Assembly: GCA_030625775.1 (NCBI GenBank)
Contig: DAOUQC010000019.1
Span: 1 to 59,586, forward strand
Direction: 5' to 3'
Origin: Verrucomicrobiota bacterium
GTDB taxonomy: Bacteria > Verrucomicrobiota > Verrucomicrobiia > Verrucomicrobiales > DEV007
DNA length: 59,586 bases
Below the pieces are notes generated by a model. The model did no database searches, was not told the origin of the DNA, and saw only the letters and a program-made list of their open reading frames with translations. Positions 18,020-27,403 of this stretch are shown here, piece after piece. A program made the position numbers and the translations under genes. Numbering within the stretch: position 1 is the first letter of the stretch; the number at the start of each line of letters is the position of its first letter.

Positions 18020-19714
18020 ATGGCTAATTTACATGAATTAGTGGCAAACGCTGAAAACGACCCTGATAACTGGGATGTGAGATTGCAATTGTCCCAGGCT
18101 TACAAAGAGCTAGGAATGGTGGATGAAGCCTTGATTGCTTTGCGGGGGAATCCACTGGCCCCCATGACCATGTCGCAGTCGCGGCAGGTGAAGGAAATGC
18201 GCAAGGAGCTGGATCCCGAGGGAAAAGCGGATATGAGTGAGCCGGTGCATCCGGTGACGGGAATGGTGATGCAGATTGCCGAGGCCGCTTCTGGTGAAGA
18301 AGAAGTTTTGCAGGCAGTCGAGATCGTTGAAGATGGTTCCGAAAGTGCACCGATTGAGCCAGTGGACTGGAGCGGGCATGAGGGTGGGTATCACGGAGAA
18401 CGATCCATTGTATTGGCCGGGGATGTGGATCCGGATGCAATCAAGGTGCATGACAAAGACAGTGATGCCGCGCAGAAGGTCTCTGCTCTGACGGTGGCTG
18501 TTCTGGTGCATGTGGGGATCGCTTTGATGCTGGGATTGGTGGTGATGTCCCTGCCGCCGGTGAATCCACCCCAACTTGTGGCTACGGCCTATACCCCGGA
18601 AACGGACGAACAGATTGAAGAGGTTAAGATTCAGAAAAAATCGCAGGCGACTGCAGCGAGTGCCGCGTCGAAGCCAACTTTTGCGATCAGCTCAATGGCA
18701 TCATCCCCGATTGCTATTCCCGATTTTGACGAGTCGCAGAATGTGGATGTGACCCTGGGGATGACGGCTCAGAACGTGGGCATGGATATGAGTTTTGACG
18801 ATGGCAAGGGTGACACCTCACAGGTGAATTTTTTTGGAATCCGTGCCACGGGGAATCGCATTGTCTTTATTATCGAGGCTTCGCGTTACATGTTGGTCGA
18901 TGAAAAGGGGGGAATCCCTGCTTACAACAAAGTGAAGGACGAGATTGCCCAGATGTTGGCCGGGTTGAACCGGCAAACAGCCTTTAACATGATCATTTAC
19001 GATGGCAAAAGGGTGGCGACCTATCAGGATGAGCTGGTGGCGGCGACTCCCTCCAATGTTCGCCAGGCAATTGAATGGTTTGATCCGATCAACAAGGTGT
19101 TTGAGAACATTGGCCTTCAGAAGGGCTACAGCTCACAGCCGGTGCAGTCTGGAATCGAGCCGATTCCAGTGGGGGATCTGGTGAATTACATCAAGGCCTC
19201 GCAGCGGGCGTTGGAGATGGACGTGAGCACTATTTTTCTGCTCAGCAATGGTTGGGGGTGGCATCGTAAGAGCATGGAAAAGCGTGAATATGAAAAATGG
19301 ATGAAGAAGAAGAAGTGGGGAGAGAAGGAGGAAGAAAAATGGAGGGAAGCGATCAAGGTGGCTCAGGCCTGGTTGAAAAAAGAAAATGAAAACCGACTGA
19401 AAAATGGAATTCCCCGCAAAGTGGTTACGGGTTTGACTGGGATTATCAGCAAAACTTCCCCGGGAATAAGGCAAAAACCTTCACCGAGTTACACCATGGA
19501 AGATGTGGAGGATCAGTTGAAAAATGCTGTGTCGATGTATTATCGAGCAAAAGGCAAACCGCGACCAAGGTTTAATGTGGTGTGGTTTGTCGGGGAGGAT
19601 GAAAATCCAAGTGCTTCGATCGAGGCTCATTTGAAACAACAGACCAAGCGCAACCGAGGCAAATTGAAGGTTTTGAAGGGTATGGCAGGTCTTAGTAATG
19701 TGACTGGAGGTTGA
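18020..19714 (+). CDS. Array paralog 1: TPR-like, single-TM, degenerate vWA-like protein
   Basis: 564 residues. Residues 1-50 (HELVANAENDPDNWDVRLQL and the following helix) look like one tetratricopeptide unit. An acidic linker leads to a single membrane helix at about 155-178 (ALTVAVLVHVGIALMLGLVV), then PPVNPPQLVA as in TonB-like anchors, and a Ser/Ala-rich stretch. Residues from about 272 (VNFFGIRATGNRIVFII) form a vWA-like domain. Its metal site is degenerate: E286-A-S-R-Y where DxSxS is expected. A very charged segment (KREYEKWMKKKKWGEKEEEK) interrupts the domain. It ends with RNRGKLKVLKGMAGLSNVTG, conserved in all three paralogs. The TPR part should be cytoplasmic and the vWA part periplasmic. 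Function unknown. Confidence 0.85.
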   Translation: MANLHELVANAENDPDNWDVRLQLSQAYKELGMVDEALIALRGNPLAPMTMSQSRQVKEMRKELDPEGKADMSEPVHPVTGMVMQIAEAASGEEEVLQAVEIVEDGSESAPIEPVDWSGHEGGYHGERSIVLAGDVDPDAIKVHDKDSDAAQKVSALTVAVLVHVGIALMLGLVVMSLPPVNPPQLVATAYTPETDEQIEEVKIQKKSQATAASAASKPTFAISSMASSPIAIPDFDESQNVDVTLGMTAQNVGMDMSFDDGKGDTSQVNFFGIRATGNRIVFIIEASRYMLVDEKGGIPAYNKVKDEIAQMLAGLNRQTAFNMIIYDGKRVATYQDELVAATPSNVRQAIEWFDPINKVFENIGLQKGYSSQPVQSGIEPIPVGDLVNYIKASQRALEMDVSTIFLLSNGWGWHRKSMEKREYEKWMKKKKWGEKEEEKWREAIKVAQAWLKKENENRLKNGIPRKVVTGLTGIISKTSPGIRQKPSPSYTMEDVEDQLKNAVSMYYRAKGKPRPRFNVVWFVGEDENPSASIEAHLKQQTKRNRGKLKVLKGMAGLSNVTGG

Positions 19715-19736
19715 TTCCTGCTGAGCATTTCTTGCA

Positions 19737-19757
19737 GTCCCGAAAATACGGTATGAG
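19737..19757. repeat. Conserved upstream element, copy 2 of 2 (second array gene)
   Basis: Identical over 21 bases to 17861-17881 and placed 106 bases before the second array gene. In this copy TCCCGA (19738-19743) and TCGGGA (19758-19763) form an inverted repeat that is absent from copy 1. Upstream of the third array gene only a loose resemblance is seen (GTCTAAAATCGGAATAAAT, from 21684). Confidence 0.65.
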
Positions 19758-19863
19758 TCGGGAAATACTTGGAAACCTGCTATTGGAATGTTAGTCTCAC
19801 TAGCAGTTCGCTTATAGTAAATAGGGGACTCCTGATTCGTTAAAATCATAACTATTTTCAACA

Positions 19864-21603
19864 ATGGCCAATCTTCATGAACTGGTGACCCAGGCTGAGA
19901 GCAATCCTGATGACTGGGAGGTGCGATTGCAATTAGCCCAGGCTTACAAAGACCTTGGAATGACGGATGAAGCATTGAATGCATTGCGGGGGAATCCTCT
20001 GGCTCCCATGACTATGGGGCAGTCGCGATTGGTGAAGGAATTGCGCTCGGAACTGGATCCTCAGGGAAAGGCTAATATGAGTGAGCCGGTGCATCCGGTA
20101 TCGGGCAAGGTGATGGAGCGGGCTAATCCTGTTACTGGGCCTGTTACAGCCAATAAGGGAGAGGGAGAAGTTTTAAAAGCGACCGGGATGCTTGAGGATA
20201 GCACGCCCATCGCGATGATGGAGGTTGAGGAGGAGGCCGCAGCTGCGCCGGAAGCGACCGGGGCGCAAGTTGATCATCACGGGGAGCGCTCCATTGTGCT
20301 GGCTGGAGAAGTAGATCCGGATGCGATCAAAGTACATGAAAAAGACAGCGACACTGCCCAGAAAGCATCAGCTTTGACGGTAGCCGTGCTTGTCCATGTA
20401 GCGATCGCCCTGGTATTGGGGCTCGTGGTGATGTCCCTGCCTCCGGTGAATCCCCCACAGATTGTGGCCACGGCTTACACTCCTGAGACGGATGAGCAAA
20501 TCGAGGAGGTTAAGATTGTGAAGAAGTCACAGGCGACTGCATCGAGTGCAGCGTCGACACCGACTTTTGCAATCTCTTCGATGGCGTCATCACCGATTGC
20601 GATTCCTGATTTTGATGATTCACAAAATGTTGATGTGACCTTGGGGATGACTGCTCAAAATCTGGGAACCGGGATGAGCTTCACCCAAGGCGAAGGGGAT
20701 TCATCGATGGTGAATTTTTTCGGTATTCGCTCCAGTGGCAGCCGGATTGTTTTTGTCATTGAAGCGGCTCGTTTCATGCTGACTGACCGCAAGGGCGGGA
20801 TTCCTGCCTTCACTAAGGTGAAGGATGAAATTGCCCAGATGATGGCTGGCATGAATCGCCAGACAGCTTTTAATATCGTAATTTATGAAGGTAAAAAAAT
20901 AGCAACTTTCCGTGACGAGCTGGTGGCGGCGACTCCCTCAAATGTGCGGCAGGCGGTCGAATGGTTTGATCCGGTTAATAAGGAGTTTGAGAAAATCGGT
21001 ATCCGCGAGGGTTTTACTTCGAAGCCTGTGCAATCCGGGATTGAACCGATCCCGGTGAATGACCTTATGCACTACATCAAGGCCATGCAAAGGGCACTGG
21101 AAATGGATGTGAATGCGATGTTTGTATTGACCAGTGGTTGGATACATCACCACAAGCCGATGGAAAAACGAGAGTATGACAAGTGGATGCGCAAACGAGG
21201 TTGGGGGAAAAAACAAGAGGAGGAGTGGCGGGATGCCCTGGTCAAGGCGAAGGCTTGGTTGACCAAGGAAAATGCAGAGAGAAAAAAGAAAGATATCCCA
21301 CAGCGGGTGATTCGGGACTGGCATGAAATCGTGGCGGAGATCCTGCCCAATGTGCAACGCAAGCCTGGACCGGGTTATGAAATGGAGGAGGTAGAGGACC
21401 AGGTTAAAAATTCGGTATCGATGTACTACCGGGCCAAGGGCAAACCCCGGCCAAAGATCAATGTGGTATGGTTTATTGGTTCGGACGAGGAACCCAGCAC
21501 GTCAGTTGATGGTCATTTCAAAAATATCACCAAGAGAAATCGTGGAAAGCAGAAGACATTAGTAGGGATGGAAGGTCTACAAAATGTGACCGGAGGTCCC
21601 TAG
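19864..21603 (+). CDS. Array paralog 2: TPR-like, single-TM, degenerate vWA-like protein
   Basis: 579 residues, very similar to paralog 1 along the whole length (LHELV, NPDDWEVRLQLAQAYKDLG, GNPLAPMTM, SEPVHPV, HGERSIVLAG, DPDAIKVH). The membrane helix is at about 168-192 (ALTVAVLVHVAIALVLGLVV). The vWA-like domain begins near VNFFGIRSSGSRIVFVI; its metal site reads E300-A-A-R-F, even further from DxSxS than paralog 1. The charged insertion (KREYDKWMRKRGWGKKQEEE) and the C-terminal RNRGKQKTLVGMEGLQNVTG block are kept. Paralogs 1 and 2 are clearly the more recent duplicates. They share the upstream 21-base element. Function unknown. Confidence 0.85.
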   Translation: MANLHELVTQAESNPDDWEVRLQLAQAYKDLGMTDEALNALRGNPLAPMTMGQSRLVKELRSELDPQGKANMSEPVHPVSGKVMERANPVTGPVTANKGEGEVLKATGMLEDSTPIAMMEVEEEAAAAPEATGAQVDHHGERSIVLAGEVDPDAIKVHEKDSDTAQKASALTVAVLVHVAIALVLGLVVMSLPPVNPPQIVATAYTPETDEQIEEVKIVKKSQATASSAASTPTFAISSMASSPIAIPDFDDSQNVDVTLGMTAQNLGTGMSFTQGEGDSSMVNFFGIRSSGSRIVFVIEAARFMLTDRKGGIPAFTKVKDEIAQMMAGMNRQTAFNIVIYEGKKIATFRDELVAATPSNVRQAVEWFDPVNKEFEKIGIREGFTSKPVQSGIEPIPVNDLMHYIKAMQRALEMDVNAMFVLTSGWIHHHKPMEKREYDKWMRKRGWGKKQEEEWRDALVKAKAWLTKENAERKKKDIPQRVIRDWHEIVAEILPNVQRKPGPGYEMEEVEDQVKNSVSMYYRAKGKPRPKINVVWFIGSDEEPSTSVDGHFKNITKRNRGKQKTLVGMEGLQNVTGGP

Positions 21604-21798
21604 GGATACTGGTTTTTAAACTTCTCTGCTTGGTTTTTTTCTGGAATGTGGGGGGCACGTTTCAACGGATGGGTGATTCGTTTGTCTAAAATCGGAATAA
21701 ATACACTTGTATAGGCCGAATTGTGGTCAGTGCTGTGCGCTTACTGGTAAAATGGTCTTTGCGATAGATAGGAGCCAGTCTGATTAGTTGTTGATAAA

Positions 21799-23676
21799 AT
21801 GAGTCACGAAGACCTGAATAGCTTGGAAAGCATACTGGCTCTGGTTCCCTGTGATTGGGATCTCAGGTTGGCTTTGATCCAGGCTTATGTACTGCGTGAC
21901 CAGATAGACGAGGCGAAAAGATTGGTCAGGGAATCGCCTGATGCAGCAGGACCTGCTCCGCCCTATGTTCAGTTTCGTTTGCACCGTTTGCTGACGGAAG
22001 GGCGTTCTGCGGCAGAGGAATTTGCACAGGAAGATACACCGGGGGTGTCGGGGATGGCGCAGGTATATGGGGGGAATGCCATCGATGCGGCGATTACTGC
22101 AACAGTTGAGGATGTTTCGTCAGACGGCGGGCCTGTTGATTATGCCATAGAAGAGGACAATCTGGCAGGCAGCGCGGAGGGCTTGGTGGGGACAGGGGAA
22201 ACTACGATTTCTCCTGAACAAAAGCCGGTTCTTGTGGAAGAAGGTTTTGGGGCATCGAGGTTTTCTGAGCCGGGTGAACCGGAGGGAAAGGTGCTGATAA
22301 AGGTGGGTGTTTCAGAGGAAAGGCAATGGGGGCTGGATCATAGCCGTTTTGTGATAGAATCTGCCGAGGACTTCCGGCCCTTACAGCGTGAAGCGGATGC
22401 CGGTCGCAAGGTGTCGGCTTTTTCGTTTGCTCTGATGTTTCACATGATAGTGGTGCTTATTCTGGGAGCTATTGTGATTGCGATTCCGCTACCAACACCG
22501 CCCCAGATCATTGCGGTCAATGTGGCGGCGGATCGAATCCTCGATGTGCCACCCAAGCGGGTAGATAAGAACAAAACACCGGATCGCTCTGCTGCGTCGG
22601 CCCAGGCGACTATGGTGATCAGTTCGTCATCTCCCTCGCCGGTGACGGTGCCCGATTTTGAGGAAACGAACTTCACTGATGTATCTGCCTATTTAACTGA
22701 CATGAAGGCAGGATTGGGCATGAGTCTTGAAGGCGAAGCGGAAGAGTCGGATGTTAATTTTTTTGGAATCCAATCAGGGGGGCGAAAAATTGCCTTCATT
22801 GTGGATGCAAGTCCGACCATGCTGGTGGACGAAAAAGGGGGGATGTTTGCCTATGACCGGGTGAAGGATGAGGTCAGTCAGATGCTGGCCTCCCTGAATA
22901 GGGGTACATCATTCAATATCCTGCTTTACGAAGGCAAACGGCTGAAAGTTTATCAATCGGAACTGGTTCAGGCACGCCCCTCTAATGTGCGTTTGGCTAT
23001 TGAGTGGCTTGATCCTCTAAATCGGAATTATGAAAGTCTGGGGCTGGGAAGAGCGGGGGGCGATGTTGCGGTGAGTAGTGGCAATAAACCCATAGCGAGT
23101 GGTGACATAACGGGGTATGCCAAGGCAGTCCAATTGGCTTTGGAGATGGATGTGAATACGGTTTTTTGTATTGCCGGAGGGTATTTGAGGATTGCGCGAG
23201 CAGCAGCACCCATGACGACGAAGGTTGCGGGAACACCTGGCAAAGCCGATCCGAAGGAGCAGGCAGCATGGAATAAAGTAGTGAATAAAACGCGCGAATG
23301 GTTGAGGAGGGAGAATGAAGCTCGCAAGAAAAAAGGCCTGGCGCCAAAGGTGGTGACGAATTTTTCCGTACTGGTCAGGCAGGTGACCGGAGCCACTCCA
23401 CCGAGAGCACGGGGCGGTAGTGGTGGTGGGAGTGCCCGTGGTCTAGCTCCTTACACGCCCGAGGAAATCGAGGAACATGTCAAAAACCTGGTTAGCAAAT
23501 ATTACCGCGACGAAGACAAGTCCTTGCCTCAACTCAATTTGGTGTTGTTTCTTGGCAAGGGTGAGGACATCGGAGATTATAAGGATCACTTCCGTCGTCT
23601 GACCCGGCGCAACAAAGGGAAGTTGAAAATCCTCGAGGGTTTGGATGCCCTTGAGGATGTCACAGCAGGTGGTTAG
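21799..23676 (+). CDS. Array paralog 3: TPR-like, single-TM, vWA protein with a more intact metal site
   Basis: 625 residues, the diverged member of the array. The N terminus keeps the short helical repeat (LVPCDWDLRLALIQAYVLRD), followed by a longer acidic linker. The membrane helix is at about 205-230 (FSFALMFHMIVVLILGAIVI), with PLPTPPQIIAV behind it. The vWA domain starts at VNFFGIQSGGRKIAFIV and has D336-A-S-P-T, close to a working MIDAS (DxSxT). The charged insertion is replaced by a segment with NKTREWLRRENEARKKKGLA and a Gly/Arg/Ser-rich loop (ARGGSGGGSARG). The C terminus RRNKGKLKILEGLDALEDVT matches the other two. It ends 6 bases from the convergent Gfo/Idh gene. Function unknown. 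Confidence 0.85.
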   Translation: MSHEDLNSLESILALVPCDWDLRLALIQAYVLRDQIDEAKRLVRESPDAAGPAPPYVQFRLHRLLTEGRSAAEEFAQEDTPGVSGMAQVYGGNAIDAAITATVEDVSSDGGPVDYAIEEDNLAGSAEGLVGTGETTISPEQKPVLVEEGFGASRFSEPGEPEGKVLIKVGVSEERQWGLDHSRFVIESAEDFRPLQREADAGRKVSAFSFALMFHMIVVLILGAIVIAIPLPTPPQIIAVNVAADRILDVPPKRVDKNKTPDRSAASAQATMVISSSSPSPVTVPDFEETNFTDVSAYLTDMKAGLGMSLEGEAEESDVNFFGIQSGGRKIAFIVDASPTMLVDEKGGMFAYDRVKDEVSQMLASLNRGTSFNILLYEGKRLKVYQSELVQARPSNVRLAIEWLDPLNRNYESLGLGRAGGDVAVSSGNKPIASGDITGYAKAVQLALEMDVNTVFCIAGGYLRIARAAAPMTTKVAGTPGKADPKEQAAWNKVVNKTREWLRRENEARKKKGLAPKVVTNFSVLVRQVTGATPPRARGGSGGGSARGLAPYTPEEIEEHVKNLVSKYYRDEDKSLPQLNLVLFLGKGEDIGDYKDHFRRLTRRNKGKLKILEGLDALEDVTAGG

Positions 23677-24718: not shown

Positions 24719-25987
24719 TTACTGAGCTTCGTGTGGAATTTCGTCTGATTTTTTATCTCGGAAGAGGATGATGAATAGAAACAGGATGACGACCAGATAA
24801 CCGACCGGAAGCATCCAGAATTGTTTCCATTCAGCAAAGCCGCCTTCGGTACCGACGATTTTGTTGAAGTAGTAACCGGATAAGAGTTTCGAACTGATGT
24901 AGAAAGCGATGCCTTGGGTGAAAACAGTCAACAGTCCTTGAGCTTGCGCACGGATTTTTTCATCCACATGCTTGTCTACGTAGAGGTAACCGGAGACAAA
25001 AACAAAGTCGTAGGAAAACCCGTGTAGAAGAACTCCTACGAGTAATAAGGTGAATACACCGTTGAGATCCGACCCTCCAGCCAACTGTCCGGCTGAAGTT
25101 GCGAATAGTAGATAACGGCAAATCCAGCAGCCGATGCCAATGACAATTGTCCACTTAATGCCAACTTTTTTCAGGAAAAAGGGCAGAGCAAAAAACAGGA
25201 CGGGCAGTTCTGCGATTTGTCCCCAAGTCAGAAAGGCAGTGGTTTTTTCCATTTTGGCCTGTCCGAGGTAGGCGCCCAGATTGGCCCAGTAGGGCATGAA
25301 AGCGATGCATACCAACAGTGAGGCAAACATGAAGACGGCAAAAGAAAATTTCTTGAAATAGGGTAAAGTGGCTGCACCAATCAAGTCTCCGAAATTAACC
25401 TTTTCACCTTTGGCAGGCGGGAAGGTTTTGGGAAGGAAGAAGGAGTAAATACCAACAATGAAAGCAGCTCCAGCGCCGACGTAACACTGGGCGGCAGAGG
25501 TGTCGAAATGAAAAACGAAGCTAATGGACAGTCCGGCAATGATCCAGCCAAGCGTGGCAAAAATTCGAACCCGGGGGTATTCTTTTTCCGGATCGGCCAG
25601 ATGTTTCAAACAGATGGTATTCGATAGGCTGAGTGTGGGCATGAAACACAGCGCATGAGCTAGCAACAGGTTGACGAATATGGTTGAAGTTTCAGGGGTG
25701 GCGTAAGACGGTGCGATGGCTAGGAAGACTCCGGAAAGTAGGAGCAGCAGCCCTTGCAGTTTCTCGGCGTTCATGAAGCGATCGGCAAAAACGCCAATAA
25801 AAAAAGGAGTGATGATAGCGGCGATCGGTGTGCAGGCATAAGCACTTCCGATGGCTTCGCCCATTCCTGCTTCAAACATGAAGCGGCCTAAGCCGGCAAA
25901 CCACGCTCCCCAGACAAAAAAGAGCAGGAACATCATTGAGCTAAGATTCGCAAGAAGGCCGAAGCTGGATTTCTGGAGGTTTGTCAT
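24719..25987 (-). CDS. MFS transporter, nucleoside/sugar permease-like (copy B)
   Basis: 422 residues with twelve predicted helices. The N terminus LSSMMFLLFFVWGAWFAGLG and the LLHGFSYDFVFVSGYLYVDK block resemble the nucleoside:H+ symporter (NupG/XapB) branch of the major facilitator superfamily. It is paralogous to the permease at 26072-27403, with the same opening (MMFL.FF.WGAWF..LG), ALCFMPTLSLSNTI against MLCYMPTLGLGNTI, and the cytosolic loop FFLPKTFPPAKGEK against FFLPHTPAPAKGQK. PVC bacteria have many copies of this branch near sugar genes, so a carbohydrate substrate is as likely as a nucleoside. It sits between copy A and the Gfo/Idh gene. Confidence 0.87.
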   Translation of the reverse strand: MTNLQKSSFGLLANLSSMMFLLFFVWGAWFAGLGRFMFEAGMGEAIGSAYACTPIAAIITPFFIGVFADRFMNAEKLQGLLLLLSGVFLAIAPSYATPETSTIFVNLLLAHALCFMPTLSLSNTICLKHLADPEKEYPRVRIFATLGWIIAGLSISFVFHFDTSAAQCYVGAGAAFIVGIYSFFLPKTFPPAKGEKVNFGDLIGAATLPYFKKFSFAVFMFASLLVCIAFMPYWANLGAYLGQAKMEKTTAFLTWGQIAELPVLFFALPFFLKKVGIKWTIVIGIGCWICRYLLFATSAGQLAGGSDLNGVFTLLLVGVLLHGFSYDFVFVSGYLYVDKHVDEKIRAQAQGLLTVFTQGIAFYISSKLLSGYYFNKIVGTEGGFAEWKQFWMLPVGYLVVILFLFIILFRDKKSDEIPHEAQ

Positions 25988-26071
25988 GGATTGGGATTTT
26001 TGATTTGTGATCGAGAGTTTTTTGCAGTTCTCACCAAAAAAGGCAAGAACGATTTCTTTGACAAAGAGGGC

Positions 26072-27403
26072 TTATTCGTCTTCAGCGACTTGGGTTTTAT
26101 CCCAGAAACCGAGGAAAAATACCAAGGTAATCACGGCTGCCATTATCGCTGGAAGGATCCAGAATTCCTTCCACTGATTCATCGTTTCGGAAATCAGATT
26201 GGGATCCAACCCCTCTGGCATATTTACTGAAAACATTTTTGCCAGTTGCTGGCCAAAAGACAAATCGCCAGCACTTCGAGCTGTGGTGATCGCTTGATCC
26301 AGATCGCCGTATTTGCTGACCCCTCCAAATTTCCCAAAGGCAACTTTGTAGCCAAAATACATGCCTACCCCCTGGGTAATGAATACCAGTAGGCTCTGGA
26401 CCTGGCTACGAATAGAACTTGGTGCCACCTTGTCAGCATACATAAAACCCGTGACGAAGAAAAAATCGTAGCAGATGCCGTGCAAGGCAATGCTGAAGAA
26501 CAACATCCATGCCACTTGATCAGGGGCTCCGAAGGCAAAAAGTAGATAACGAAGCACCCATGCCATCATGCCGACCAGGATCATCCATTTGACTCCCAGT
26601 TTCCTGAAAAAGAAGGGGATCAACAACATGAAAATGATTTCGGACATCTGGCCGATACTCATCGATGAGGCGGCTTGTTCGAAGCCTGCGTTAGTGAGAT
26701 AGTTTGAAGTTAGACCATAATAATAGGCCAGTGGGATGCAGATAAGTCCCGAGCAAAGGATGAATACAAAAAAGGCAGGTTTGGCAAGTAGCTTCCAGGC
26801 GTCCAGCATCAGCAGGGCTTTCAAGTCAATTTTTTGCCCTTTAGCCGGAGCAGGAGTGTGTGGTAGGAAGAAAGAATATACTCCCAGGATAAGTGAGCTG
26901 ATTGCGGCGAGTTTAAAGATGTCCAACTTGGTGCTCCATCCCAGGAATCCCACTACTAACCCGGCAACAATCCAGCCGATAGTGCCCCAGACACGTACTT
27001 TTGGAAATTCGATTCTGCTGAGATTGGAAAAAGCAATGGTGTTTCCCAGGCCAAGGGTTGGCATGTAACAAAGCATATGGCCGAGGAACAATTTGACCAT
27101 TAGGTCACCGTCACCTGCTACAGCTGCGTTGCCGGCAAAATACATCAAGACTCCACCGATCAGGAAGAGGACACCCATCACAATCTGTGAAGGAAAAAAT
27201 CGGTCGGCGATGATACCGAGAAAGAGTGGGGCAAAAATTGCACCGAGAGGAGCTGTGCCATATGCCGCACCGATTGAACCTGCTAGTTCATTTGATCCCA
27301 GAGCGGCACCCAAAGTAACAAACCAGGCTCCCCAGGTGAAAAACTGGAGGAACATCATGATACTCAGTCGTGGCATTGCAGAGGCGGGAGATTGATCGGA
27401 CAT
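26072..27403 (-). CDS. MFS transporter, nucleoside/sugar permease-like (copy A)
   Basis: 443 residues, twelve predicted helices, first gene of the minus-strand cluster. The opening SIMMFLQFFTWGAWFVTLGA and the block ALHGICYDFFFVTGFMYADK match the permease at 24719-25987, from which it is separated by 84 bases. It differs by an extra hydrophilic loop late in the protein (about residues 345-395, KFGGVSKYGDLDQAITTARS). Two diverged permeases in one cluster suggest related but different substrates, or a heteromeric arrangement; neither can be decided here. It diverges from the hydroxyacid dehydrogenase gene at 27481. Confidence 0.87.
   Translation of the reverse strand: MSDQSPASAMPRLSIMMFLQFFTWGAWFVTLGAALGSNELAGSIGAAYGTAPLGAIFAPLFLGIIADRFFPSQIVMGVLFLIGGVLMYFAGNAAVAGDGDLMVKLFLGHMLCYMPTLGLGNTIAFSNLSRIEFPKVRVWGTIGWIVAGLVVGFLGWSTKLDIFKLAAISSLILGVYSFFLPHTPAPAKGQKIDLKALLMLDAWKLLAKPAFFVFILCSGLICIPLAYYYGLTSNYLTNAGFEQAASSMSIGQMSEIIFMLLIPFFFRKLGVKWMILVGMMAWVLRYLLFAFGAPDQVAWMLFFSIALHGICYDFFFVTGFMYADKVAPSSIRSQVQSLLVFITQGVGMYFGYKVAFGKFGGVSKYGDLDQAITTARSAGDLSFGQQLAKMFSVNMPEGLDPNLISETMNQWKEFWILPAIMAAVITLVFFLGFWDKTQVAEDE

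Follow-up and report, generated by a model that had tools for sequence, protein, structure and literature searches.

Three adjacent genes in the window (the whole stretch of 59,586 nucleotides that was analysed, from a Verrucomicrobiota genome) encode proteins that, by homology, belong to the class of vWA force transducers, and sequence comparison marks the array as a derived branch of it without motor genes, with a fused TPR domain and a dismantled metal site. The array proteins are probably, though by no means certainly, TonB/TolA-like vWA force transducers powered in trans by a motor whose genes lie elsewhere in the genome, most likely those on contig C150. The class, membrane-tethered proteins of the PVC group (Tichowtungia family), was proposed in 2025 in a paper which itself states that deletion phenotypes have yet to be reported (PMC12204202). 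It is so far only a predicted class, and the array extends it. While the earlier note knew of no named system with this order in triplicate, a name for the transducers therefore exists; what stands of that claim is that the available text describes them as neighbors of motor genes and mentions neither tandem arrays nor a fused cytoplasmic TPR domain (PMC12204202).

The array lies on the plus strand of contig C7 of the source genome, a draft of 4.88 Mb in 158 contigs, and the ORF listing places its three genes exactly where, and at the lengths, the earlier note had them (Table 1). The intergenic gaps are 149 bp and then 195 bp, and in an alignment over the whole length gene 2 is 71% and gene 3 is 36% identical to gene 1. 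Values of dN/dS against orthologs or paralogs are 0.05-0.09 where computable, pointing to purifying selection, and the congener locus L012, which seems to be one and the same contig as G443:C399, has four tandem members, the first without TPR, preceded by the three genes that also lie upstream of the array. Because dN/dS is low and gene order, for which a synteny check had been proposed, is kept in the congener, the ORFs are real genes. Promoter-like sites across the array are no commoner than chance, terminator-like sites are modestly above it, and scanning identity along genes 1 and 2 gave no clear converted stretch. Further along the window (24719-27403) two adjacent minus-strand genes for MFS-type transporters (422 and 443 aa) resemble tandem duplicates.

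Table 1. Array genes and their predicted domains, in window coordinates.
Feature	Position	Strand	Basis
Gene 1, 564 aa, clade A TPR-TM-vWA protein	18020..19714	+	ORF, family alignment, tree, AlphaFold2 model
Gene 1 N-terminal TPR-like four-helix domain, residues 2-64, putatively cytoplasmic	18023..18211	+	pLDDT about 78-93; weak Pfam TPR_19
Gene 1 membrane helix, residues 150-177, His164 at 18509-18511, A-x3-H-x6-L	18467..18550	+	Alignment, AlphaFold2
Gene 1 vWA domain, residues 265-563, metal site degenerate	18812..19708	+	AlphaFold2, structure search, alignment
Gene 2, 579 aa, clade A paralog	19864..21603	+	ORF, alignment, tree, metal-site reading
Gene 2 membrane helix, His178 at 20395-20397	20353..20436	+	Alignment
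Gene 3, 625 aa, clade B paralog	21799..23676	+	ORF, alignment, tree, metal-site reading, AlphaFold2 model
Gene 3 membrane helix, residues 201-228, His215 at 22441-22443	22399..22482	+	Alignment, AlphaFold2
Gene 3 vWA domain, residues 317-613	22747..23637	+	AlphaFold2, structure search

The term triplet fits the three tandem genes but not the paralog set, which is bigger: genome search located a fourth copy on C35, 78% identical to gene 1, and there are distant paralogs, a pair on C57 and one on C9. The C35 copy adjoins an ORF that by eye resembles a REP-associated tyrosine transposase (L009:5624-6655, minus strand), and may have been moved. In a tree made by a quick method clade A comprises genes 1 and 2 and the C35 copy, and most single-copy members join gene 3 in clade B; L026, L029 and L030 group with clade A at weak support, that of the wider A clade being 81. 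Pairs of A and B genes persist in L014-L017 and in L136, the first gene of which is not firmly placed. On this tree genes 1 and 2 arose inside clade A before the congeners split, and the array is amplified from an older A/B gene pair. As that old duplication is kept as a pair in several genomes, the earlier suggestion that the paralogs could form a hetero-oligomer is reasonable.

The AlphaFold2 model of gene 1, built with 31 aligned sequences, consists in order of a four-helix domain, a disordered acidic linker, the membrane helix, a second disordered linker and a confidently modeled C-terminal domain, and the model of gene 3 has the same architecture. A single central membrane helix is predicted in each of the three proteins, and the C-terminal domains of genes 1 and 3 are predicted to fold as vWA (Z 16-18), so that both elements of the earlier description are present in the predicted models. 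In VIA-align the gene 1 domain matches inter-alpha-inhibitor heavy chain 1 with Z 17.8 and rmsd 2.2 over 165 residues, and that of gene 3 gives Z 16.7-16.8; the top Foldseek row, 9c4f_I, labeled ‘B19V capsid’, scores like the inter-alpha-inhibitor vWA domain. Most of the blocks named as common to the three paralogs are invariant or near-invariant alignment columns. The C-terminal RN(R/K)GK block lines up with the final helix/strand of ordinary vWA domains and is the end of that domain rather than a separate module. Likewise the N-terminal helical repeat is present, but amounts to only about two TPR units, four helices in the predicted fold, with Pfam scores of 18-21 bits against a cut-off of 25. 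These sub-threshold TPR matches are all that Pfam gives, with no vWA match; no Pfam, NCBIfam or PADLOC family scores above cut-off for any of the three proteins, and a PDB sequence search with them returned weak TPR-type matches only. The order of the TonB-type motif suggests that the N-terminus is cytoplasmic and the vWA domain periplasmic, in support of the layout first proposed.

It is at the metal site that the array departs from the ‘adhesion-type’ domain of the earlier note, at least in the metal-dependent sense, as most of the site's residues are replaced in all three proteins. The motif reads EASRY in gene 1, EAARF in gene 2 and DASPT in gene 3, with loop 3 being SNG, TSG and AGG, respectively; position 1 is E or D, the second Ser is lost, and so are the loop 2 Thr and loop 3 Asp, and none of the three aligned proteins has an intact DxSxS...T...D site. 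Transducers in motor operons at L034, L128 and L143 retain the site (DxSxS, Thr, SDG/ADG). The nearest non-TPR relatives (L057, L058 and L060) have S-x3-H and share most of the degeneration, and, because they are motor-adjacent yet degenerate, decay of the metal site probably started while the genes were still in the motor operon.

One histidine of the membrane helix is shared by each of the 40 homologs in the first alignment, as the only helix residue that never varies, and its spacing fits the A/S-x3-H-x6-L frame of TonB and TolA; the TonB motif itself is Ser-x3-His-x6-Leu (PMC12215075). Two features of the helix count against a motor-driven reading: the motif Ser four residues before the His is Ala in the array branch, and the His is absent from 4 of 32 non-TPR homologs and from L165 and L166, members from another family of the order. 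The linker that follows, of 92-93 aa and low confidence in the model, comes close to the roughly 100 aa given for vWA transducers (PMC12204202). After the helix the segment LVATAYTP resembles the TonB D-box ISVTMVT, with no strand predicted there. For annotators, a helix with A/S-x3-H-x6-L is diagnostic in proteins that Pfam and NCBIfam leave unnamed.

Genome search placed 25 of 29 remote homologs directly behind ExbD, mostly in a full ExbB-ExbD-ExbD arrangement, where the 29 include L034 and L056, probably from one genome, and L065, cut by its contig end. The C9 relative in the source genome itself sits right after ExbB-ExbD-ExbD. At eight loci of the same family (L128, L143, L144, L145, L146, L148, L149 and L152) a TPR-fused vWA protein directly follows ExbB-ExbD-ExbD, two of them ending at a contig edge before the vWA domain is complete, and the TPR chassis itself therefore occurs in motor operons; the metal site is intact in those whose site was read. 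Shorter non-TPR vWA proteins occupy the same post-motor slot in L151 and L153-L158, and at L154:4392-6634 two short vWA transducers stand in tandem after a single ExbB-ExbD-ExbD motor. No motor gene was found on the window contig, nor one directly adjacent to the TPR-fused loci with a degenerate metal site (L012-L033), which also counts against a motor-driven reading; a weak ExbB-like fragment lies 2.7-5.7 kb off on the opposite strand at L018/L019. According to the source, adjacent tolQ/tolR-like genes occur ‘often’ with vWA transducers, i.e. they are typical and not obligatory, and TonB genes are likewise often away from their motor genes (PMC12204202).

The source genome has nine ExbB-type matches above cut-off, some of them partial. 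The C9 motor is accompanied by its own vWA transducer, that on C57 by a TonB-like gene and those on C70 and C13 by candidate TonB-like genes, while the C150 and C21 motors have no adjacent transducer gene. In all five genomes checked (L088 and L159-L162) the C150-type operon is without a transducer; its conserved order there is ABC, ExbB, ExbD, ExbD and a TPR protein of ~1000 aa, with an extra ExbD in L160 and L162. The C150 ExbB is 36-38% identical to the motors of TPR-vWA loci and 43% to one short-vWA motor, against 20-29% for other motors of the source genome. By elimination and similarity only, C150 ExbB-ExbD-ExbD is the best candidate motor for the array; that C21 likewise has no adjacent transducer counts against the link. 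Relatives of the C150 ExbB occur in 72 of 75 family genomes, and, being nearly universal, their presence is uninformative on the array and does not separate genomes with it from those without.

In the mechanism envisaged, the membrane helix would dock through its conserved His on the side of the ExbB pentamer, ExbD may be bound by the strand that immediately follows, and ion flow through the inner-membrane motor would move the transducer. Its periplasmic vWA domain would thereby exert a pull on, or remodel, some partner located in the outer membrane or the cell wall. With the metal site lost, that domain would be a metal-independent protein-binding module. A probable role of the cytoplasmic TPR domain is to recruit a partner in the cytoplasm or to link transducers together, and a clade A protein (gene 1 or 2) may pair with a clade B protein (gene 3) on a single motor. 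Since the window contig carries no motor gene, the proteins would be expected to work in trans with one from elsewhere, most likely C150.

The absence of an adjacent motor from every degenerate TPR-fused locus, the change of the motif Ser to Ala and the loss of the metal site are also what would be seen if the proteins, though of motor-driven ancestry, were now passive scaffolds that join a cytoplasmic TPR partner to a periplasmic one and leave the motor unused. We consider this unlikely, since a membrane His present in every one of the 40 aligned sequences, alone among the helix residues, is unexpected if motor binding has been lost, and the separation from motor genes is paralleled by TonB (PMC12204202). 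The vWA fold would also suit a metal-dependent adhesin, with the periplasmic domain binding its ligand through a MIDAS metal, but the MIDAS residues are largely replaced, though kept in the motor-operon relatives, making such a role very improbable.

A combination of TPR and vWA domains with membrane anchoring is typical of BatABC, and the array could on that account be taken for a Bat-like (MoxR-associated) complex for envelope stress or protein assembly. Among the ORFs around the array and its relatives, however, no MoxR-type or bat neighbor was seen by eye, and a TonB-type His motif and relatives with ExbBD neighbors are not Bat features; of all the readings it has the slightest probability.

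As putative force transducers, the array proteins share with those of PMC12204202 the TonB-type His helix, a linker of similar length and, at the C-terminus, a vWA domain, and their relatives share its gene order of tolQ-like, two tolR-like and vWA genes; the fused TPR on the cytoplasmic side, the dismantled metal site, the tandem genes and the lack of an adjacent motor set the array apart. With TonB and TolA they have in common a single helix with A/S-x3-H-x6-L, a linker and a globular periplasmic domain, but they have a large N-terminal domain before the helix, and vWA replaces the TonB/TolA C-terminal domain. GltG of Myxococcus gliding has a cytoplasmic FHA domain, one membrane helix and a periplasmic part, and interacts with the TolQ/R-like motor AglRQS (PMC3169522). 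The likeness to GltG/GltJ is one of layout, and the cytoplasmic and periplasmic domains differ; the one GltJ match, weak and below cut-off, came from the C9 relative and not from the window genes.

Many genomes of the family have proteins that share only the TPR-linker-helix half and continue into squalene-cyclase-like or other domains, and one of the C57 pair in the source genome is of this type. To our knowledge, outputs other than Ton, Tol and gliding are established for only a few ion-driven envelope motors. The array branch points to an output side that, within one bacterial order, was duplicated, gained a cytoplasmic domain and received a variety of periplasmic heads, and a conserved motor without a transducer of its own alongside varied outputs is a testable case of one motor with several outputs. 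A broader and distinctly tentative idea, to which we give rather little weight, is that Verrucomicrobiales have a chassis of TPR, linker and His helix with swappable periplasmic domains (vWA, metal-free vWA or a squalene-cyclase-like toroid), several of which would take turns on a single ExbB-ExbD-ExbD motor lacking a transducer of its own, their cytoplasmic TPR partners choosing the envelope task. A literature search on squalene-cyclase or TPR-fused motor transducers found only PMC12204202.

Other combinations of these domains were seen in passing. At L010:5956-9776 is a pair of TPR-helix proteins, one squalene-cyclase-like and the other a vWA protein with intact MIDAS, and the pair is kept in L123, L124 and L125. 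The roughly 3-Mb genomes of L163 and L164, which belong to another family of the order, have tandem triplets of a membrane helix and a squalene-cyclase-like domain (500-514 aa) with no TPR, no motor nearby and no His at the TonB-type position of the helix. At L130:3887-11366 there is a further tandem triplet, of 788-820 aa proteins that combine TPR, a His helix, a vWA-like motif (DVSGSM) and a domain unrecognised by Pfam.
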